A DNA stretch of 64,000 nucleotides from Acidisoma silvae (GTDB lineage Bacteria; Pseudomonadota; Alphaproteobacteria; Acetobacterales; Acetobacteraceae), in assembly GCF_020618775.1 (NCBI RefSeq), contig NZ_JAESVB010000015.1:1-64000 (forward strand), read 5' to 3'. Made by a program: the position numbers and the translations under genes. Every line of letters starts with the position of its first letter. The stretch's first letter is position 1. The notes beneath the pieces are model-generated. The model ran no database searches. It saw only the letters and a list, made by a program, of their open reading frames with translations, and was not told the origin of the DNA. Shown here in pieces: positions 54,234-63,877 of the stretch.

Positions 54234-54485
54234 TTAGTTTGAGGCCCCGGTCAGCGTCGATTTGTTTTGCTTCGACAGACCGCCGGCCTTCTTGCCGCTG
54301 GCGGTGGACATGCCGCCGCCGGCGGTGCCGCTGGTCGGCTTCTTGCTGACGCCAGGCGAACCGACCCGCGCACCGGCCACAGCCGCGCTTTTGGTTTGCA
54401 CCGCGCCATCGGAATCCGCCCAGACACTGACGACCGGTGCGATGGCGATGGTCGCCGCGATCGCTGCCATTGGAATAAATTTCAT
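54234..54485 (-). CDS. Small secreted protein
   Basis: 83 residues with signal peptide MKFIPMAAIAATIAIAPVVS (cleavage near VWA-D). The mature part is Gly/Ser/Lys-rich and unstructured (VSKKPTSGTAGGGMSTASGK). ATG 54485 preferred. No family recognised. Confidence 0.6.
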   Translation of the reverse strand: MKFIPMAAIAATIAIAPVVSVWADSDGAVQTKSAAVAGARVGSPGVSKKPTSGTAGGGMSTASGKKAGGLSKQNKSTLTGASN

Positions 54486-54624: not shown

Positions 54625-55440
54625 TCACGCGCGTGCGCGCCCACCGATTTCGGCAGTGACGACATCGCCGCATTGCCGAACCAATGCGCCCACCGACTGA
54701 ACCCGTGCCTCGGTCATCCGAGCGGCGGGGCCAGCGATGGAAATCGCGGCATGGACGGCCCCGGCCTCGTCGAAAACGGGCGCCGCGATGCAGCGCAGGC
54801 CGATGGCGAATTCCTCGTTATCCACCGATATGCCGCGGGCGCGGATGAGGCCGAGCTCCTGCGACAAGGCCGCCACATCCGTGATGGTATGCTCGGTATA
54901 GCGCGGCAGGCCCCGCCGCCCGATGATCGAGGCGACCTCCCCTTCCGTCATATAAGCCAGCATCATCTTGCCGGCAGCAGAGCGATGCAGGCCCATACCG
55001 CCGCCTGGGCGGGAGATGGCACGCACCATCTGCTGGCTTTGGATCTGCGCCATACAGATGACCTCGTCCCCGTCCAGCGTGAAGAAATTCACCGTCTCCC
55101 CGCTCTCGGCCATCAGGCGGCGCATATGGGGCAGCGCCAGCGCCACGTTATCCCTTGAGCGGGCAAAGCTATTGCCGACGCTGAAGGCCTGCACGCCCAC
55201 CAGCCAGGACATGGTCGCCTGCTCGAAGCGCACGAAGCGGCGGCGCTGGAGGGTAGTGAGGATGCGATGCGCGCTGGACGGCGGCAGCCTGACCCGGCGG
55301 GCGAGATCCGTCAGGGTCAGCCCGTCATCACAGCCGGCCAGTTCCTCCAGAATCGCCAGCGCGCGGGTAATGGATTGCACCCCGCCCTGACCCGATGGCG
55401 CGCTTTTTGCTTCGTTTTCCGTGCTTTTGCTGCGTGCCAC
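54625..55440 (-). CDS. IclR-family transcriptional regulator
   Basis: 271 residues from GTG 55440 (GGAG upstream). N-terminal winged HTH (SITRALAILEELAG, LPPSSAHRILTTLQRR), C-terminal effector domain (GLHRSAAGKMMLAYM, IRARGISVDNEEFAIGLRCIAAPV, given around 195-230). Divergent from the ring-opening amidohydrolase operon with a palindrome at 55486-55499, so its likely regulator. The frame is open to 56607 only because it shadows the amidohydrolase. Confidence 0.88.
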   Translation of the reverse strand: MARSKSTENEAKSAPSGQGGVQSITRALAILEELAGCDDGLTLTDLARRVRLPPSSAHRILTTLQRRRFVRFEQATMSWLVGVQAFSVGNSFARSRDNVALALPHMRRLMAESGETVNFFTLDGDEVICMAQIQSQQMVRAISRPGGGMGLHRSAAGKMMLAYMTEGEVASIIGRRGLPRYTEHTITDVAALSQELGLIRARGISVDNEEFAIGLRCIAAPVFDEAGAVHAAISIAGPAARMTEARVQSVGALVRQCGDVVTAEIGGRARA

Positions 55441-55485
55441 GCCGCGCTCTCCGCCAAGCCTCAGACGGCCCAGCATTCCACATCG

Positions 55486-55499
55486 TGAAATTGATTTCA
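55486..55499. promoter_or_regulatory. IclR-type operator candidate
   Basis: Perfect palindrome TGAAAT-TG-ATTTCA in the 120-bp divergent promoter. The GAAAT-ATTTC core resembles known IclR-family sites. Confidence 0.6.
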
Positions 55500-55560
55500 A
55501 ATTTGTTTGCGCGCCGCAGCAAGGGCGTCCAGTTTCGGGACCAGCACGGAGGAACGAGCC

Positions 55561-56655
55561 TTGCGCATTGGTGTTCACAAGCTGGCCATGGCCAATCCCG
55601 GTGATACGGCGGGCCTGACCCGGCTGATCGAAAACGGCGCCGTGGTGCCGGGCGAGATTGTCGCCGTCATCGGCAAGACGGAGGGCAATGGCGGCGCCAA
55701 TGACTTTACGCGCGGCCTGGCCACCCTCTCCTTCTCGCTGCTGCTCGCCAAATATCTGGGCCTTGCGCCGGATGAGGTGACGCGAAAGATCGCCTTCGTC
55801 TGGTCCGGCGGGACCGAGGGCGTGTTGAGCCCGCATGCCACCGTCTTCACACGCGGCGCGGATGACGCGGCGCCGGACGGACGCAGCAAGCGCCTGACGC
55901 TCGGCATTGCCGTAACGCGCGACCTGGCGCCCGAGGAAGTCGGCACCATGGCGGAAGTGCGGCTGGTGGCGGAAGCGGTGCTGAGCGCCCAGGCCGAGGC
56001 TGGCATCACCGACCCGCGCGACGTCCATTACGTGCAGGTGAAGGGTCCGCTGCTGACGCCCGCAGCCGTCGCCGATGCCGACAGCCGGGGTGCCAGGCTC
56101 GTGACACGCGACCCGAACGGATCGAAACCCTATGCGCGCGGTGCGACGGCGCTTGGCGTGGCGCTGGCGCTGGGCGAAGCCACCGAGAGCGCTCTGCATG
56201 ACGGCATGATCGCCCAGGCGATGGATGTCTATTCCTCCGTCGCCAATACATCCGCCGGCGGTGAGCTGAAGAATTGCGAAATCCTGCTCTTTGGAAATTC
56301 CATCCAAGCCAGCGGCGATCTTCGCATCGGCCATGCCGTTCTGCAGGATGTGGTGGATGCCGGCGCCGTCACCCGCGCGGCGCAGAGCGCGCTGGGCGAC
56401 ACCGATGCCGCGCTGGATATAAGTCAACTGGTGGCGCTCTTCGCGAAAGCCGAAGCCCCACCGGGCGGCATGCTGCGCGGACGCCGCACCACCATGCTGT
56501 CGGATGCCGATATTCATTACGAACGCCATGCCCGCGCCTCGCTCGGCGCCGTGCTGGCCTCCGTCACCGGTGACTCGGCCATCTTCATCTCCGGCGGCAC
56601 GGAACATCAGTGCAAGCCGGGCGAAGCGCCGATCGCCGCCATTCTGCGCGTCTGA
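55561..56655 (+). CDS. Ring-opening amidohydrolase (cyanuric acid hydrolase/barbiturase family)
   Basis: Hydrolyses a cyclic imide ring, cyanuric acid to carboxybiuret/biuret or barbiturate to ureidomalonate. 364 residues, the family length. Three-fold repeated Ser-Lys architecture is visible: Lys39 (VIGKTEGNGGANDF) with WSGGTEGVLSPH, YVQVKGPLL with YSSVANTSAGGEL, and FISGGTEHQCKPGEAP in the third. TTG 55561 start: GGAGG precedes it and LRIGVHKLAM is the family N-terminus. First gene of an operon with transporter and amidase. Confidence 0.88.
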   Translation: MRIGVHKLAMANPGDTAGLTRLIENGAVVPGEIVAVIGKTEGNGGANDFTRGLATLSFSLLLAKYLGLAPDEVTRKIAFVWSGGTEGVLSPHATVFTRGADDAAPDGRSKRLTLGIAVTRDLAPEEVGTMAEVRLVAEAVLSAQAEAGITDPRDVHYVQVKGPLLTPAAVADADSRGARLVTRDPNGSKPYARGATALGVALALGEATESALHDGMIAQAMDVYSSVANTSAGGELKNCEILLFGNSIQASGDLRIGHAVLQDVVDAGAVTRAAQSALGDTDAALDISQLVALFAKAEAPPGGMLRGRRTTMLSDADIHYERHARASLGAVLASVTGDSAIFISGGTEHQCKPGEAPIAAILRV

Positions 56656-56699
56656 TGGTCCATCACTCCAGCGTCACAGCCAGAACCCGGGAGCTTTTC

Positions 56700-57719
56700 A
56701 TGCCTAAGCTGAGCCTTGTTCATCGCGCGGGCGTCCTGATCGCCGGTGCCACCTTCGTTTTAGGCCTTGCCGGCGCGCATCCGGCGCTGGCCGATGACAA
56801 GGCCGCCATCCTGCTGCCCGGCAGCATCAATGACCAGAGCTGGAACGCGCTCGGCTATTCCATCGTAAAAAGCCTGGAGCCGCACGGCTTCAAGACGGCC
56901 TATTCCGAGAACGTCGCCGATGCCGACGAAGGCGACGCGCTGCGCGACTATGCCAGCCAAGGCTATAGCATCGTCCTCGGCCATTCCGGCCGTTTCGTCT
57001 CGGCCATGGAGGAAGTGGCCCCCGATTTTCCGAAAGTGCAGTTCATCGCCGTCAGCGGGAATGAAGGCCAGGCGCCGAATGTGATGTCGATCGACTGGAA
57101 CAATGCCCAGTTCGGTTGCCAGCTCGGCCTGCTTTCCGCCCGCATGAGCAAGACGCATAAGGTGGGCGGCGTCTACGGTTTGCAGGGCGTACCCAATATC
57201 ACCGCCCAGGCCGGCGGTTTCCGCGTCTGCGCGACGCAGGCGGGTGCCAAGGTCACCATCATCTATATCAAGGATATGGAAGATTCGGCAGAGGCCAAGG
57301 AGGCAGCTTTGTCCTTGATCGATCAAGGGGCTGATGTCCTCACCGGCAAGCTCAATGCGGCGGAAGCCGGGCTGGTGGAAGCGGCGAAAGACAAGCATGT
57401 CTATGTCACCGGCCGAGGCTACGATCAGACCAAGATCGCGCCGGATCTGGTGCTCACCAATATTCTCGAAGACTGGCCGTCCATGATCGGCAATGTCGCC
57501 GACCAGGTGAAGGCCGGAAAGCTGTTCGGCAGCTTCGTGCAATACGGCTACAATACCGCCCCCGTCACCGGCGCATCCTTCGGCTATCAGCCGGGGCAGG
57601 CCTTCAACCCGGTGGTGCCTGCGTCAGTGGTCAAGGAGCTTGATACGATGGCGAGCGATTTCGGCTCCGGGAAGCGCAAGCTGGTGCCGACCGAGCACGA
57701 CGCCCGCCCGGGCAGCTGA
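56700..57719 (+). CDS. BMP-family ABC substrate-binding protein
   Basis: 339-residue periplasmic binding protein with signal peptide (VLIAGATFVLGLAGAHPALA, about 11-30). BMP/PnrA features: PGSINDQSWNALGY, GHSGRFVSAM, VGGVYGLQ and a late GVTY-like strand. Family members bind nucleosides or purines; here the context suggests a triazine or pyrimidine ring amide. ATG 56700 with GGGAG upstream. 44 bp after the amidohydrolase. Confidence 0.86.
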   Translation: MPKLSLVHRAGVLIAGATFVLGLAGAHPALADDKAAILLPGSINDQSWNALGYSIVKSLEPHGFKTAYSENVADADEGDALRDYASQGYSIVLGHSGRFVSAMEEVAPDFPKVQFIAVSGNEGQAPNVMSIDWNNAQFGCQLGLLSARMSKTHKVGGVYGLQGVPNITAQAGGFRVCATQAGAKVTIIYIKDMEDSAEAKEAALSLIDQGADVLTGKLNAAEAGLVEAAKDKHVYVTGRGYDQTKIAPDLVLTNILEDWPSMIGNVADQVKAGKLFGSFVQYGYNTAPVTGASFGYQPGQAFNPVVPASVVKELDTMASDFGSGKRKLVPTEHDARPGS

Positions 57720-57742
57720 TACAGGCCGAGCCGAGACCCGCC

Positions 57743-59230
57743 ATGGCGGCCCTTCTGGAGATGCGTGGCATCGTCAAATGCTTCGGCGCGGTGCGGGCCA
57801 ATGACGGCATCGATCTTGACGCGCAGGCCGGGGAGATCGTCGGCCTGCTGGGCGAAAACGGATCGGGCAAAAGCACGCTCATGAAGCTGCTGTTCGGCAT
57901 GATGCCGCCGGACGCCGGTGGCATCGTCTTTCGCGGCCGGGAATTGTCCGATCACAATCCACGCATGGCGGCGGAAGCCGGCATTGCCATGATCCACCAG
58001 CATTTCACGCTGGTGGAGGCGATGACGGTGGCCGAAAACATCATGCTGGGCTGGCAGGACGCGGGATGGCGCCTCAAGCGCCGGGAGATTGCCGATCGTA
58101 TCCGCGAGACCAGCCGCAGGCTGGGCCTGGAACTCGATCCCTCCGCCCGTGTCGGTGATCTGTCACTCGGCCGCAGACAGCGCATTGAAATTCTGAAAGC
58201 CGTGCTGCGCGATGCCGAGCTTCTGATCCTGGATGAGCCGACCTCCAACCTCGCTCCGCCGGAAGTCGCCGAGCTTCTGGCCATTCTTCGGCACCTGCGC
58301 GCGGAGGGCAAAGGCATCATCTTCATCACGCATAAGCTGCCCGAGGTTCTGGATGTGTGCGACCGTGTGGTGGTGCTGCGCGCCGGGCGTGTCGCGGGTT
58401 TCGCCCCGGTCGCGGGCGCGGATCGCGCGACGCTGGCCCGCATGATGGTAGGGCGCGATGTCCCTGCCCCGCAAAATCTCAGCGGAAGCGGGACCGGTGC
58501 CACGCGCCTGTCCGTATCCGGCCTGGGCGGCGCGGGCATCGGCCCGATGGACCTCACCCTCAGCGGCGGGGAAATCCTCGGCCTCGCGGGGGTGGACGGC
58601 AACGGCCAGTTGGAACTTGCCGAAACGCTGGCGGGTTTGCGCGCGGCCACGGGTGGCAGCGTGATGCTCGACGGACGGGACATCACCCATGCCTCCGTCT
58701 CCGCGCGCATGACGGCCGGGCTGGCCTATATACCGGCCGACCGCAGCAGCACCGCCCTGGTGCGCGGCATGACGATTGCCGCAAATCTGATGCTGCGTGA
58801 CAGCGCCCGGCCGCCCTATGCACGGCGCGGGTGGCTTACGAAGCGCGCGACGCAGACACGCGCCGCCGCCCTCATGCAAGGTTTCGACATCCGCGCGCCC
58901 TCCCCTGCTGTCCCGGCCGGGCGGCTTTCGGGCGGCAACCAGCAGAAGATCGTCATCGCGCGGGAATTGGACCGTAACCCCGGCCTGTTGATCGCGCATC
59001 AGCCCACCTGGGGGCTGGACCCCGGCGCCACGCATTTCGTGATGGAGCGGATGCTGGCGCTGCGCGCCGCCGGTGCCGCCGTGCTCTATATCTCCTCGGA
59101 GCTGGAGGAAGTGCTGGCCATCAGCGACCGTGTCGCCGTGCTGGCAGGCGGCGCCATCGCGGGCATCATGCCGCGCGGCGGCGTGGATATGGCGCAGCTC
59201 GGCCTCTGGATGTCAGGCCGCGCGGCATGA
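57743..59230 (+). CDS. ABC transporter ATP-binding protein, tandem NBDs
   Basis: 495 residues, two fused nucleotide-binding domains. First: Walker A GENGSGKST, signature LSLGRRQR, Walker B LLILDEPTSNL. Second: the Walker A position reads GVDGNGQLE (degenerate), signature LSGGNQQK, Walker B LLIAHQPTWGL without the usual Asp-Glu. This asymmetric layout is normal for nucleoside-type ABC importers. Energises the two permeases downstream; overlaps the next gene (ATGA). Confidence 0.9.
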   Translation: MAALLEMRGIVKCFGAVRANDGIDLDAQAGEIVGLLGENGSGKSTLMKLLFGMMPPDAGGIVFRGRELSDHNPRMAAEAGIAMIHQHFTLVEAMTVAENIMLGWQDAGWRLKRREIADRIRETSRRLGLELDPSARVGDLSLGRRQRIEILKAVLRDAELLILDEPTSNLAPPEVAELLAILRHLRAEGKGIIFITHKLPEVLDVCDRVVVLRAGRVAGFAPVAGADRATLARMMVGRDVPAPQNLSGSGTGATRLSVSGLGGAGIGPMDLTLSGGEILGLAGVDGNGQLELAETLAGLRAATGGSVMLDGRDITHASVSARMTAGLAYIPADRSSTALVRGMTIAANLMLRDSARPPYARRGWLTKRATQTRAAALMQGFDIRAPSPAVPAGRLSGGNQQKIVIARELDRNPGLLIAHQPTWGLDPGATHFVMERMLALRAAGAAVLYISSELEEVLAISDRVAVLAGGAIAGIMPRGGVDMAQLGLWMSGRAA

Positions 59231-60270
59231 GCGACGCCTTGTCCGCCACGCCAGCGACGCGGATCGCCCTGCGCCGGCAGGGTCTGCTGCCGCGCATCCT
59301 GGGCGCTGTCCTGCTGTCCTTCATCATCGCCGCCCTGCTCATCGCGCTGACTGGCCATAATCCGCTGACCGCTTTCGCGGCCATGCTGGGTGGCGTGTTT
59401 GGATCGCCCTACCAGATCGGTGAGGCGCTCAACCGCACGTCACCCTATCTGCTGGCGGGAAGCGGCGTGGCCCTGTGCTTCCGTGCCGGCGTCATCAATA
59501 TCGGCGCGGATGGGCAGATCGCCATGGGCGGCATCGGCGCAGCCGGCGTGGTGCTGCTCTGGCCCGGCCAGCCGGGCCTGCTCAGCGCTGTCGCCGCCAT
59601 CATCGGTGCGGCGCTGTGCGGTGCCGCCTGGGCGGGCATCGCGACCGCCATTCATCTCGGCCGCCGCGTGCATGAGGTTCTCGTCACGCTGCTGCTGAAC
59701 TTCGTGGCGCTGTTGCTGGTGCAACTGGCGCTGGCCGGGCCGCTCGGCCAGCCCGGTGCCGGGTTCCTGCAATCCCGCCCGCTGCCGCGCGCCGACTGGC
59801 TGTGGCGCGCCCCGCATGTCTTCTTCCATGGCGGCATTATCCTGGGCGTGATCGCAGCGCTGGCACTCTCTGTCCTGCTGTGGAAGACGCCCTTCGGCTT
59901 CGCCATCCGCGTGACCGGACAATCCCGCCGCGCCGCCGCCTATGCCGGCTTTTCGGCTGCGGGCATCACCTGGGGCGTCATGCTCACGGCCGGGGGCCTT
60001 GCCGGTATCGCGGGCGGCACGGAGGTTCTGGGCCTGCATCACCGGCTGATCGAGGGTTTTTCGACCGGCTTCGGCTTCAAGGCCGTGACCGTGGCGCTGC
60101 TGGGCGCACTGGAACCGGCGGCGGTGATCCCCGCCGCACTTTTCGTGGGTCTGCTGGAATCGGGCGCGCTGTCCATGCAGCGGCAGATCGGCGTGCCCTC
60201 GGCCCTTGTCGTCGTGATCGAGGGCATCACCATGCTGCTCATCCTGGCTGCCACGGTGCGCCGCGCATGA
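59227..60270 (+). CDS. ABC permease 1 (nucleoside/BMP type)
   Basis: 347-residue inner-membrane permease, about 9-10 helices. INIGADGQIAMGGIGAAG and GKTPFGFAIRVTG-like EAA region mark the BPD_transp_2 family. Overlaps both neighbours by 4 bp. Forms the channel with permease 2. Confidence 0.88.
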   Translation: MSDALSATPATRIALRRQGLLPRILGAVLLSFIIAALLIALTGHNPLTAFAAMLGGVFGSPYQIGEALNRTSPYLLAGSGVALCFRAGVINIGADGQIAMGGIGAAGVVLLWPGQPGLLSAVAAIIGAALCGAAWAGIATAIHLGRRVHEVLVTLLLNFVALLLVQLALAGPLGQPGAGFLQSRPLPRADWLWRAPHVFFHGGIILGVIAALALSVLLWKTPFGFAIRVTGQSRRAAAYAGFSAAGITWGVMLTAGGLAGIAGGTEVLGLHHRLIEGFSTGFGFKAVTVALLGALEPAAVIPAALFVGLLESGALSMQRQIGVPSALVVVIEGITMLLILAATVRRA

Positions 60271-61160
60271 TCGACTTTCTGGCCGCCAGCATCCGCATCG
60301 CAACACCTCTGGTCTTCGCCGCCCTGGGCGGCATCCTGTCGGAACGCGCCGGCGTTTTCGCCGTGGGTCTGGAAGGCATGATGCTGATGGGCGCCTTCGG
60401 CGCCGTCATCGGCGCCTGGGCCAGCGCCAGCGACCTTCTGGGTCTTGCCATGGCCCTGGCCGGCGGGGCTGCCATGGGCCTGGCCGTCGCGATCGTGACC
60501 GTGCGCTACCGCGCCGACAATATGGTGACGGGCCTGACCGTCAATATTCTGGCGGCCGGCCTGACGACCTATCTGCTGCATGTGCTGGCCGGCAGCAGCG
60601 CCATTCAGGTGGACCCGCTCGGCCCCTGGCCCATTCCCGGCCTGAGCGCAATTCCTGTCCTCGGCCCGCTGTTATTCGCGCATCCACCGCTGACCTATCT
60701 TGCCCTGCTGGGCTGCGCTGGCCTGTCATTCCTGCTCTACCGCACGCAAACCGGGCTCAAACTGCGCGCGGCGGGGGAAAATCCCGAAGCCGTTTTCGTG
60801 GCAGGATCAAGCCCCATGCGCCTGCGCTTCACCGCCATCATCTGCGGCGGCGCTATTGCCGGCCTGGGCGGCGCCGTGCTGTCGCTACAGCAGGTCGGCA
60901 CCTTCACGGACGGCATGACGGGCGGACGCGGCTACCTTGCACTCGCCTCCCTCATCGTCGGACGCTGGAACCCCTGGGGCGCGGCGGCCGCCTGCCTGGT
61001 CTTCGGCGCCGCCGAGGCTTTCGAACTGCGGCTGCAAACCTATGGCGTGCCGGTGAGTTCCTATGTGGTGCAGATGGTGCCCTATCTCATCGCACTGGCC
61101 GTTCTGGCCGGGCTCGGCCGTTCCACGAAACTCCCCGCCGCCATCGGCAAACCTTTGTGA
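60267..61160 (+). CDS. ABC permease 2 (nucleoside/BMP type)
   Basis: 297-residue permease, about 8 helices, BPD_transp_2 type: FAVGLEGMMLMGAFGA, YRTQTGLKLRAAGENPEAV (EAA loop) and GRGYLALASLIVGRWNPWG. Start ATG 60267 in ATGA overlap; the frame is open upstream as a shadow. Partner of permease 1. Confidence 0.88.
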   Translation: MIDFLAASIRIATPLVFAALGGILSERAGVFAVGLEGMMLMGAFGAVIGAWASASDLLGLAMALAGGAAMGLAVAIVTVRYRADNMVTGLTVNILAAGLTTYLLHVLAGSSAIQVDPLGPWPIPGLSAIPVLGPLLFAHPPLTYLALLGCAGLSFLLYRTQTGLKLRAAGENPEAVFVAGSSPMRLRFTAIICGGAIAGLGGAVLSLQQVGTFTDGMTGGRGYLALASLIVGRWNPWGAAAACLVFGAAEAFELRLQTYGVPVSSYVVQMVPYLIALAVLAGLGRSTKLPAAIGKPL

Positions 61161-62554
61161 GCGCGCCTGTCATGCCTGAGGATATCACTGGCCTCGCCGC
61201 CGCCCTGCGGGCCGGCGCGCTGACCGCCGAAGCGCTGCTGGATCGCGCGCTCGCCCGCATCGCGGCAGGTGACGGCGCGCTCAACAGTTTCGTGGCGCTG
61301 GATGACGCGGGCGCCCGCGCGGCGGCGCGGGACAGTGACCGGCGGCGCGCGGCGGGCGCGGCCCGCTCGGCGCTGGACGGCGTGCCGCTCTCCATCAAGG
61401 ACAATCTCCTGGCAGCCGGCCTGCCCGCGACCTGGGGCAGCCGCGCGCTGGCCGGCTTCGTGCCGGCCGAGGATGAATTGCCGGTGGCGCGCCTGCGCGC
61501 GGCGGGCGCTGTCATTCTGGGCAAGACCAATGTCCCCGAGCTCACGGTGGAGGGCTATACCGCCAATGATCTGTTCGGCGTCACCGGCAATCCCTGGAAT
61601 CCGGCGCTCACGCCAGGCGGATCATCCGGCGGCGCGGCGGCGAGCGTCGCCGCCGGTTTCGTGCCTGGCGCCATCGGCACCGATGCCGGCGGCTCCATCC
61701 GCCGCCCCGCCAGCCATACCGGGCTGGTGGGATGGAAGCCCTCCACCGGGCGTATCGCGCGGTTCGGCGGTTTCCCGACCATTCTGAGCGATTTCGAGGT
61801 CATCGGCACGCTGACGCGCAGCCTGGCCGATGCGCGGCTGCTGGATGACGTGCTGCGCGGGCCGGATGCGCGCGACCGGCGCTCTCTCCTCGTGCCGGGG
61901 ACCGGCTGGGCCGGCAAGCCGCGCGTGCTGTATGTGCCGCAATTCGGGTCATCGCCCGTCGACCCCGAGGTCGCCGCCGCCACGCGGGGTTTTGCCGAGG
62001 CCCTGACGGAGACCGGCGCGGATGTGACGGAGGGCGCGGTCTTTTTCGATCTCTCCGCCGCAGGACGCGTCTGGTCCGCCATCACGCGTGCGGGGGTCGC
62101 GCATATCATGACCTGGCAGCCGGGTTTCGAGGCAGTGGCGGGCGCCTCGGTGCGCGCCATGGCGGCGGAAGGACGCCTGGTCACCGGAACGGATTATGTG
62201 GCCAGCCTGGAGACCGTCGCTGTGTTGCGCGCACAATTCGCTTCCCTGTTCGCGTCCTACGATCTTGTGCTGACGCCTGCGGCCGCCGCCTTGCCCTGGG
62301 ACGCGGCGGCACCCTACCCCACGCGCATAGACGGGCAAGAAGCTGGGCCGCGCGACCATGCCATTTTCACGGGCTGGGTAAATATCGGCGGGCTACCGGC
62401 GGTCAGCCTTCCGGTCGCCCTGTCGCAAACCAACCTGCCCATCGGCGTGCAGCTGGTCGCGGGCTTCGGCCAGGATGAAGCCTTGCTCGACTTCGCAGCC
62501 GAGGCCGCGCGGCTGATGCCAGCGCCGGCTCTGCCGCTGTCATCATCCCCCTGA
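61157..62554 (+). CDS. Amidase-signature hydrolase (biuret hydrolase or ureidomalonase candidate)
   Basis: 465 residues with full triad Lys81 (SIKDNLL), Ser156 (GGSSGGAA), Ser180 (GTDAGGSIRRP). GTG 61157 overlaps the permease stop (GTGA). Following a ring-opening amidohydrolase, two known partners belong to this family: AtzE-type biuret hydrolase (cyanurate route) and ureidomalonase (barbiturate route). No AtzG-like small subunit gene is seen, which weakens the AtzE reading. Confidence 0.82.
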   Translation: MSAPVMPEDITGLAAALRAGALTAEALLDRALARIAAGDGALNSFVALDDAGARAAARDSDRRRAAGAARSALDGVPLSIKDNLLAAGLPATWGSRALAGFVPAEDELPVARLRAAGAVILGKTNVPELTVEGYTANDLFGVTGNPWNPALTPGGSSGGAAASVAAGFVPGAIGTDAGGSIRRPASHTGLVGWKPSTGRIARFGGFPTILSDFEVIGTLTRSLADARLLDDVLRGPDARDRRSLLVPGTGWAGKPRVLYVPQFGSSPVDPEVAAATRGFAEALTETGADVTEGAVFFDLSAAGRVWSAITRAGVAHIMTWQPGFEAVAGASVRAMAAEGRLVTGTDYVASLETVAVLRAQFASLFASYDLVLTPAAAALPWDAAAPYPTRIDGQEAGPRDHAIFTGWVNIGGLPAVSLPVALSQTNLPIGVQLVAGFGQDEALLDFAAEAARLMPAPALPLSSSP

Positions 62555-62573: not shown

Positions 62574-63314
62574 CTATTTCGGCAGCGGACGGCGCGCGCC
62601 ATCCGATTCGTCGCTTTTGATAAGAGTGAGGTAGCGATCCATCGCCTTGCGGAACTTGGCTTGCCAGATGGCCTGCGCTTCTTCCAGATTGCCGTCACGA
62701 ATGGCCTCGAAGAGCTTGACCACGTATTTCTTCGCGTCGCCCTTGCGATCCGTATAGACCACGGCAAGAAGATTATTGAACCGCCGCACATCGCCCGTGA
62801 GTTCCGAGAAATAGCGCATGGTGCGTTGCAGCCCGGTGGCGTCGATAATCGTCTGCTGGAATTCCAGGTCGTTCTGGACCGTTTGTGACTGGTCTTCCAG
62901 CGCCGCGAATTTCACCGCGCTGGCGGCAAGCTTTTCCAGCCGCTTGAGCATGCTGGCGGAGATTTTGCCCTTCTCGTGCAGAAGGTGATCCAGCGCGATT
63001 TTACCCAGGGCCATGCGAAGATTGTACACGTCGATGACGCTGTCGGAATCCAGAGCGGTGACGGATGCACCTTTATTGCGCTGAATATCGACGAAACCTT
63101 CCCGCGCCAGGATACGGAGCGCTTCTCGCACCGGATGACGCGACACGTTCAGCATGTCTGTGAGCTGCTGCTCCACCAGCCGGTCACCCGGTTTGAAATG
63201 CCCGGCGATAATCGCATTGCGAATCTGCTCGGCCGCGAACTGCGTGGACTCCACCTGCGTCATGGGAGCCATTATCGCTTCGGTTTCAGCCGCACGCCGC
63301 ATCAATAACCCCAT
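62574..63314 (-). CDS. GntR-family (FCD) transcriptional regulator
   Basis: About 246 residues: winged HTH (VEQQLTDMLNVSRHPVREAL, LAREGFVDIQ) and helical FCD domain (DLEFQQTIIDATG). ATG 63314 chosen; TTG 63326 and ATG 63302 are in frame, none with a strong ribosome site. Converges on the amidase; downstream of ridA on the same strand, so it may regulate either unit. Confidence 0.84.
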   Translation of the reverse strand: MGLLMRRAAETEAIMAPMTQVESTQFAAEQIRNAIIAGHFKPGDRLVEQQLTDMLNVSRHPVREALRILAREGFVDIQRNKGASVTALDSDSVIDVYNLRMALGKIALDHLLHEKGKISASMLKRLEKLAASAVKFAALEDQSQTVQNDLEFQQTIIDATGLQRTMRYFSELTGDVRRFNNLLAVVYTDRKGDAKKYVVKLFEAIRDGNLEEAQAIWQAKFRKAMDRYLTLIKSDESDGARRPLPK

Positions 63315-63457
63315 TTGCGACCGCAATTAGCTTGCGCGGTCTTCCGGAAATGTAGACGATATACGATTTCCAGAGGCTATTGAGAAGCCCTGCCCCCGGC
63401 CCGGGCCGGTTGCACGGGAGGGCGCGCCGGTATTCGGCGCACCCCAAGCCTGTCCGT

Positions 63458-63877
63458 TTAGAGCGAAATCGAGAGATTGTTCACGGGCAGGCTGCCCGCG
63501 CCGCGATAGGCGGTCAGTTCGATTTCAAACAAGTATTCCGGACCGCCGAGCGGGCCGCAGCTGACGCAGCTTGCCGGGTCAATGCCACGGAAGATTTCGC
63601 CCATATAGGCCATGACTTCCGGCACGTCTTCCTGACGCGTGATGAAGATGCGGCGGCGCACGACATCGGCCAGGCTGGCGCCGACGGCTTCCAGCGACGC
63701 CTGGACATTCTTCATGGCGTTCTTCGCCTGTTCGATCGTCGTCTCGGGCATGACGCGGGTCGTGAAATTCCGCCCCGAGGTCAGGGAAGTAAAAATCCAG
63801 TTATCCAGCGCGACGATGCGCGAATAGCCCTCGTGATGTTCGAGAATGCTACCCGACTTCAGTTTTGTAAGTTCCAT
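63458..63877 (-). CDS. RidA-family protein
   Basis: 139 residues, Rid/YjgF trimer-forming fold: WIFTSLTSGRNF, QAKNAMKNVQASLEAVGASL, then CVSCGPLGGPEYLFEIELTA. The enamine-deaminase Arg of true RidA (usually near the C-terminus in R-x-x-V-E) is not evident, so it may belong to another Rid subgroup. 31 bp after the SDR gene, probably co-transcribed. Confidence 0.8.
   Translation of the reverse strand: MELTKLKSGSILEHHEGYSRIVALDNWIFTSLTSGRNFTTRVMPETTIEQAKNAMKNVQASLEAVGASLADVVRRRIFITRQEDVPEVMAYMGEIFRGIDPASCVSCGPLGGPEYLFEIELTAYRGAGSLPVNNLSISL

Follow-up and report, generated by a model that had tools for sequence, protein, structure and literature searches.

The AtzD/barbiturase (Toblerone) family of ring-opening amidohydrolases includes the cyanuric acid hydrolases and the barbiturases. 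According to one study's abstract, one class of the family reportedly has neither activity and another reportedly could not be expressed. The available text of PMC3758960 names seven cyanuric acid hydrolases, while that of PMC4051656 gives ten clades. In Pseudomonas ADP, AtzT is encoded in an operon divergent from atzDGEHF (PMC6834077). The locus described here comes from the alphaproteobacterium Acidisoma silvae (GCF_020618775.1) and lies in positions 1 to 64,000 of contig NZ_JAESVB010000015.1, a 64,000-nucleotide stretch referred to below as the window. It consists of a six-gene operon encoding an AtzD-family hydrolase, a BMP binding protein, an ABC ATPase, two permeases and an amidase, together with a divergent IclR-family gene. 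On sequence grounds, the hydrolase is assigned to a third clade of the family that is apparently uncharacterised, "third" being counted against the cyanurate and barbiturase clades. With somewhat less than even confidence, the operon is read as a catabolic unit for a cyclic ureide of the oxidised purine or pyrimidine type, most likely neither cyanurate nor barbiturate, with carbon leaving as glyoxylate.

Family membership is evident from the profile match (Table 1) and from the predicted structure (pLDDT 89.1), which Foldseek aligns to family structures with template modelling (TM) scores of 0.81-0.94; the best Protein Data Bank (PDB) match by E-value is 6bup (TM 0.92, 50% identity). By sequence, the nearest solved structures are cyanuric acid hydrolases, followed by barbiturase. 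Relatives were collected from genome contigs with the peptide patterns [LV]IGKTEGN and GGANDFTR, and among the best 80 of at least 539 confirmed stretches, 58 loci (L038-L095) carry a member of the same clade, here designated clade X. These loci belong to Pseudomonadota and Actinomycetota and, in metagenome-assembled genomes (MAGs), where binning may err, to Verrucomicrobiota, Rokuibacteriota, Planctomycetota, Chloroflexota and Bacillota. In a 101-row tree, clade X (57 rows) forms one side of a branch with bootstrap/SH-aLRT support of 95/100; nine barbiturase rows (100/100) and four PDB cyanurate hydrolases lie outside it. The cyanurate rows do not form one side of a branch in this tree because a paralogous group nests with them. 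Very long branches are seen for L033 and the Acidithiobacillus row. Clade X is also recovered in a 56-row quick tree that includes a group IV member (24 rows, SH-aLRT 100) and in a 39-row tree built without very long branches (clade X, 16 rows, 100/99; barbiturases 100/100; cyanurate-like remainder 92/90). A sister relationship between clade X and the barbiturases is not claimed from the 92/90 branch, which is unstarred in an unrooted tree. The comparators on the cyanurate side were four PDB sequences and one relative from Rhizobium leguminosarum, with no identifiable group V row; among the sequences compared, no characterised enzyme falls within clade X, and the window's enzyme groups neither with the four PDB cyanurate hydrolases nor with the barbiturase of PDB 5hwe. 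A preliminary description of this locus had offered cyanurate and barbiturate as the two choices, to be checked by such a phylogeny and refuted by a clade with neither activity. A distinct placement was obtained, but in neither known clade, which comes close to that refuting outcome; with a third clade whose specificity positions match neither enzyme, the choice between two substrates is not supported.

The residues that distinguish the known enzymes support this separation. In the available text of the relevant papers, Arg195, Thr321, Arg325, Gly345 and Gly346 make up the cyanurate signature (PMC3758960), while Cys45, Tyr188, Met191 and Thr321/326 line the proposed substrate entrance of TrzD and AtzD (PMC5366886; PMC3758960). 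All 58 clade X members read R-E-R-G-G at the specificity positions, with Glu at 321, a combination unlike the six groups in the available text of PMC3758960. The reading is R-T/S-R-G-G in the cyanurate clade (23 rows, 20 with Thr and three with Ser), N-H-K-V-A in the barbiturases (19 rows) and R-Q-R-G-G in the paralogous group (12 rows, one of which has Val at the first position). AtzD column numbers run 1-2 above those of the paper after about residue 160, and the paper's numbers are used here for 188, 191, 195, 321, 325, 345 and 346; as a check on the column mapping, the published signature of group IV was recovered in the Acidithiobacillus protein. At the entrance, Cys45, Tyr188, Met191 and Thr321/326 are replaced by Gly, Asn, Lys and Glu, respectively, in 58/58, the Gly being in part a product of the search pattern. 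Every member keeps the active-site Arg54 and all three Lys and three Ser, as are the Arg residues at AtzD 194/195 and 324/325. Since the catalytic Ser, Lys and three Arg remain while the entrance residues have changed, catalysis is probably intact and the entrance appears to have been rebuilt.

The principal rival to the ureide reading is a cyanuric acid operon, in which a divergent cyanuric acid hydrolase would act with the amidase in the place of AtzE/BiuH, and allophanate would be finished by a hydrolase elsewhere in the genome. The hydrolase passes the NCBIfam equivalog model for cyanuric acid hydrolase, NF052395 (434.2 against a cut-off of 360 bits), the equivalents of Arg194 and Arg324 are kept, and BMP importers adjoin atzD in two cyanurate-type loci. 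Allophanate hydrolase also passes its cut-off in 12 of the 13 clade genomes tested, that of A. silvae included, a frequency at which it does not discriminate as a marker. Set against these points, Thr321 is Glu throughout a separate clade, and the C-terminal metal-loop motif given as diagnostic in the available text of PMC9118981, SGGxExQGPxGGGP, is absent from the window's enzyme, which reads SGGTEHQCKPGEAP instead, and from the clade members listed. The operon also lacks a cysteine hydrolase and AtzG, and its BMP protein shares about 27% identity with AtzT and with the R. leguminosarum counterpart, as against 35% between those two. The amidase was rejected as AtzE, the 1-carboxybiuret hydrolase subunit (TIGR02715, 189.6 bits against a cut-off of 425.75; no AtzG partner beside it). 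A cyanurate operon is judged unlikely, although it is the main competitor. Because the curated NF052395 cut-off is passed, automatic annotation would be expected to name this enzyme cyanuric acid amidohydrolase, probably wrongly. More generally, a clade X protein without the published diagnostic motif passes this model, and automatic naming may err.

The importer had been invoked in the preliminary description as an unusual partner for a ring-opening amidohydrolase, favouring a pyrimidine-like substrate. This argument fails because BMP genes lie beside atzD on plasmid NZ_KP289281, which has the Pseudomonas layout of atzDGEHF with an adjoining importer protein annotated as BMP family, and in R. 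leguminosarum, whose atzD operon holds a BMP protein, permeases, an ATPase and cysteine hydrolases. The pairing is precedented and, if anything, would favour a triazine. The available text of PMC6834077 gives AtzT dissociation constants of 0.11 uM for guanine, 0.36 uM for ammeline, 340 uM for cyanurate and >8000 uM for barbiturate. The window's BMP protein is 51-91% identical to five BMP proteins of clade loci and groups with those of its own clade. In a comparison by eye with AtzT, Ser97 and Asn220 are the same while Glu165, Trp194 and Asn218 differ, and the ligand could not be read from these residues. A pyrimidine-like substrate, or a purine-like one, may nevertheless be correct on other grounds, namely the residues shared with barbiturases and the gene neighbourhoods.

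These shared residues are Trp84 and Gly48 (AtzD numbering), which are common to clade X and the barbiturases and not found in cyanurate hydrolases. Gly48, along with Ala49, was partly chosen by the search because the collecting patterns cover both positions; the other positions discussed lie outside the patterns. Trp84 and Gly48 raise the prospect of a second kind of barbiturase, which would convert barbiturate to ureidomalonate, with the amidase yielding malonate and urea. The 39-row tree is also consistent with this, in that clade X and the barbiturases lie on one side of the 92/90 branch. The barbiturase signature of Asn195, His321, Lys325, Val345 and Ser/Ala346 is absent in 58/58, however, and 17 neighbour probes drawn from clade loci found no match in 19 barbiturase loci, making this alternative clearly improbable. 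In nine cyanurate-clade loci, the same probes matched only an amidase (3) and a weak hydantoinase (1).

The gene neighbourhoods of clade X fall into two parts. In the non-actinobacterial part (45 loci: 43 of the 58 plus L025 and L031), the amidase is found in 40 loci, BMP in 30, IclR in 17, a serine/aspartate-glyoxylate-type aminotransferase in 15 and a flavin adenine dinucleotide (FAD) hydroxylase in 12, with an NMT1 binding protein (7), a YkoE-type ECF component (5), a racemase-like protein (2) and a weak hydantoinase (2) less often. This recurrence of BMP and amidase argues that the gene set is not a chance association. The actinobacterial, Bacillota and Chloroflexota part (12 loci, after L087 and L088 were dropped as near-copies of L086) features an FAA hydrolase in all 12, an Asp/Glu-racemase-like protein in 9, a xanthine-type permease in 6, and hydantoinase and CynX-type genes in 5 each; PuuE-like protein and malate synthase (3 each), uricase-like protein, NMT1, YkoE and IclR (2 each), and urease and amidase (1 each) are rarer. 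With the xanthine permease model, a clade-locus permease scores 424, above the cut-off of 414. The closest match of the aminotransferase is a serine-glyoxylate aminotransferase (6pk1, 365 bits), well ahead of PucG (159). The FAD hydroxylase weakly resembles several heteroaromatic hydroxylases, and the closest relatives of the racemase-like protein are maleate isomerases and arylmalonate decarboxylases. Since a locus with the amidase almost never has the FAA hydrolase as well, the two may act on the same ring-opened product. The importers around clade members vary (BMP, NMT1/THI5, ECF and NCS2), as might be expected if the substrate were some other small cyclic amide or imide unrelated to purines, such as orotate, hydantoin, oxonate, succinimide or an alkaloid-like ring; PDB 5hy0, which belongs to a different branch of the family, bears the title 'orotic acid hydrolase'. 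Genes linked to glyoxylate or to nucleobases recur in some of the loci, though, and such a substrate is considered fairly improbable.

Two further observations concern the wider family. In nine loci (L050, L062, L064, L067, L078, L079, L081, L084 and L089), the clade X gene has three neighbours no more than about 10 kb away: a second AtzD-family paralogue of the R-Q-R-G-G group, with a motif ending in GGGL, an FAD hydroxylase, and an amidase that is split into pieces in L050. The two family members perhaps carry out two ring-opening steps. In a plasmid collection, 132 records hold an AtzD-family match. Many of these are enterobacterial plasmids sampled from drains, showers or clinical sources, and the matches listed are about 50% identical to the window's enzyme.

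A link to purine breakdown is suggested by L086, where the enzyme is flanked by genes for a divergent uricase, malate synthase, a PuuE-like protein and urease (three subunits, UreF, UreG-type and UreD). In L086-L088 and L093, the divergent uricase, malate synthase, PuuE-like, racemase-like, FAA hydrolase and clade X genes form one run, to which the urease genes are added in L086-L088. No 5-hydroxyisourate (HIU) hydrolase or OHCU decarboxylase was detected by search in the genomes of L086, L088 and L093, all of which carry the divergent cluster uricase. The clade X enzyme might accordingly replace HIU hydrolase by opening the six-membered ring of 5-hydroxyisourate, with the neighbour resembling racemases and arylmalonate decarboxylases standing in for OHCU decarboxylase. 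The complete genome of Conexibacter lacks both enzymes too, but also has no PF01014 uricase. Across 51 clade genomes (that of A. silvae, G092, G084 and those of 48 of the 58 clade loci), however, HIU hydrolase is encoded in 44, OHCU decarboxylase in 41 and uricase in only 12, and six of the seven genomes without HIU hydrolase are MAGs. With HIU hydrolase retained so widely, replacement was rejected as the general role and is regarded as highly improbable; in A. silvae, which encodes both enzymes, the window's hydrolase is no stand-in.

Purine-type clusters also occur with other AtzD-family members. On a Pseudanabaena plasmid (L125; NZ_AP017563, 5278-10081), the order is hpxO-uraD-puuE-hydrolase-uraH, the AtzD-like hydrolase having cyanurate-type residues. 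An Acidithiobacillus caldus plasmid (L122; NZ_CP026329, 535-12235) carries a group IV AtzD-like gene in a purine-type cluster of the order xdh-ureidoglycolate lyase-hydrolase-XdhC-AtzG-like-AtzE-like-hpxZ, with a gamma-glutamyltransferase also present; this cluster shows the G-E-H order of atzDGEHF. Other plasmid-borne family members lie instead in cyanurate-type loci. These arrangements support a purine theme for part of the AtzD family, not a given reaction for clade X. The association of clade X or of the AtzD family with purine clusters was not found in the literature searched, and may be in print.

The regulator may offer a further indication of the pathway's products. Its best NCBIfam models are BhcR, IclR and AllR, each below the equivalog cut-off (268 against 350, 237 against 380 and 185 against 406 bits, respectively), and the available text of PMC11323563 reports that regulators of these three types respond to glyoxylate. 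The IclR protein probably senses glyoxylate or a related 2-oxo acid, judging from this resemblance. In the gap between the IclR and hydrolase genes, the 16-nt core TTCCACATCGTGAAAT is identical in all 10 loci with a divergent IclR gene (the window, L039, L040, L041, L046, L049, L051, L052, L053 and L060), where it lies 83-86 nt ahead of the hydrolase start. Seven loci that share the gene order but have no such IclR (L025, L031, L043, L044, L047, L048 and L063) gave no match with up to three mismatches. In L069 and L074, whose IclR genes are placed differently, weaker matches with two and three mismatches adjoin these genes, and the few remaining ones are scattered, every one with three mismatches. 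Position 55486, at which the preliminary description began the operon, coincides with the exact palindrome TGAAATTGATTTCA, which has one exact and one single-mismatch match in the window (0.08 expected at up to one mismatch). Another operator-like site, at 54471-54484 with one mismatch to TGAAATNNATTTCA, overlaps the likely start codons of a small open reading frame for a secreted protein and may be a coding coincidence.

Taken together, these observations suggest how the proposed ureide pathway might operate. The BMP-type ABC importer would take up a small cyclic ureide, the AtzD-family enzyme would open its ring by means of Ser-Lys dyads, with a hydrogen-bond donor of the substrate facing the Glu at the AtzD Thr321 position, and the amidase would cleave the linear product and release nitrogen. 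The regulator, of the BhcR/IclR/AllR branch, would control the divergent promoter through the conserved operator, probably in response to glyoxylate or a related 2-oxo acid made by the pathway. The gene set, the clade, the residue changes, the conserved site and the neighbourhoods come from the computations themselves, whereas the substrate class, the order of reactions, the binding of IclR to this putative operator and its effector are what we infer.

Several points weigh against the ureide reading. Because the neighbour probes derive from clade loci, matches are more likely there; in addition, four of the 19 barbiturase control loci are short (3-10 kb), and short contigs occur on both sides. 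The aminotransferase, FAD hydroxylase and xanthine-type permease are present in a minority or half of their loci, while the uricase-bearing loci amount to three near-identical MAG loci (L086-88) and L093. No purine gene was seen beside the window's operon; and because the A. silvae genome encodes HIU hydrolase and OHCU decarboxylase elsewhere and has no PF01014 uricase, a purine role would be neither gap-filling nor uricase-supported in this organism. The ligand of IclR is suggested by family scores only. The cyanurate rival gains from the NF052395 score, from the retention of every Ser, Lys and Arg of the cyanurate site, and from the occurrence of the BMP-AtzD layout in cyanurate loci.

A broader and more doubtful proposal is that clade X represents a widespread, unrecognised enzyme of purine or ureide catabolism that opens a purine-derived ring. 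If so, together with the Pseudanabaena and Acidithiobacillus genes, it would suggest that purine breakdown, rather than triazines, is an ancient natural function of the AtzD family and the source of the herbicide-degrading enzymes. In any case, a large clade in which the catalytic residues are kept, the entrance is rebuilt and the operons recur in several phyla makes a testable case.

The features of the locus, identified with Pfam and NCBIfam profile scans and with starts read from the sequence, are collected in Table 1. They bear out the preliminary description of an IclR-linked uptake and ring-opening operon for a cyclic amide at the level of protein families, with the divergent IclR gene, which lies outside the interval 55486-62554 first assigned to the operon yet is part of the unit, and the conserved operator-like site added. 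The coupling of hydrolase, importer and amidase is likewise sustained: every gene passes its Pfam cut-off, and after gaps of 44 and 23 nt, the last three junctions are 4-nt overlaps, which indicates tight coupling.

Table 1. Features of the Acidisoma silvae locus (positions in the window; scores in bits, with cut-offs in brackets)
Feature	Position	Strand	Evidence and remarks
IclR-family regulator	54625-55440	minus	Pfam IclR_C 158 (24), HTH_IclR 58 (22)
Conserved operator-like site TTCCACATCGTGAAAT with palindrome TGAAATTGATTTCA	55476-55499	no strand	IclR/hydrolase gap
AtzD/barbiturase-family (Toblerone fold) ring-opening amidohydrolase, 364 aa	55561-56655	plus	PF09663 461 (25)
BMP-family substrate-binding protein	56700-57719	plus	PF02608 Bmp 112 (24.1)
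Double ABC ATPase of importer	57743-59230	plus	ABC_tran 168 (25), 2 stretches
Importer permease 1	59227-60270	plus	BPD_transp_2 128.6 (26.8)
Importer permease 2	60267-61160	plus	BPD_transp_2 112.8 (26.8); ATG at 60267
Amidase-signature hydrolase	61157-62554	plus	PF01425 Amidase 308 (27)

The hydrolase starts with TTG after GGAGG, and two orthologues align from the same codon; a GTG start is assumed for the IclR gene, which has an in-frame ATG further upstream (codon 55474-55476). The N-terminus of the BMP protein resembles a signal peptide, judged by eye, and the amidase contains the signature segments SIKD, GGSSGG and GTDAGGSIR. Pfam and NCBIfam scans found neither AtzG nor a cysteine hydrolase among the operon genes. 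The earlier remark that no AtzG-like gene is present is thus right for the operon but not for the genome, whose one AtzG-like match (contig C7:31805-31954) adjoins an amidase-type match (C7:30421-31656). A promoter and terminator scan gave nothing usable (2 promoter-like hits, both intragenic, with 0.8 expected; 3 terminator-like hits with 4.0 expected). Within the family Acetobacteraceae, the operon is sporadic: PF09663 matches occur in 28 of 150 genomes and in neither of the 2 other genomes of the genus in that sample. The operon is followed on the opposite strand by a GntR gene and a RidA-like gene. This minus-strand region (window 62574-63877; L022:3910-8820) also carries SDR, amino-acid-type ABC and LLM-class flavin monooxygenase genes, the monooxygenase being 51% identical to a protein encoded just downstream of the L066 clade X gene.

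In comparison with known systems, the window's enzyme shares its fold, the three Ser-Lys-Arg sets and, in the structural comparison, 47-50% identity with the cyanuric acid hydrolases (AtzD, TrzD and the Moorella enzyme), but differs from them in its separate clade, in the changes of Thr321 to Glu, Tyr188 to Asn, Met191 to Lys and Met84 to Trp, and in the loss of the metal-loop motif. With the Rhodococcus barbiturase (PDB 5hwe) it has the fold, Trp84 and Gly48 in common, while the barbiturase specificity residues are missing and the neighbourhood is different. The operon resembles atzDGEHF/atzRSTUVW of Pseudomonas in combining an AtzD-family enzyme, a BMP-type ABC importer and a second hydrolase of the amidase family, and the R. 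leguminosarum atzD operon in having a BMP-type importer on the enzyme's strand; it departs from both in its IclR instead of LysR or GntR regulator, in having no AtzG and no cysteine hydrolase, and in its distant BMP protein. As for the regulator, BhcR, AllR and IclR are the best-scoring models, yet with scores under their equivalog cut-offs, and the window's site is similar to both the IclR box TGGAAATNATTTCCA and the AllR motif as given in the available text of PMC8222616.

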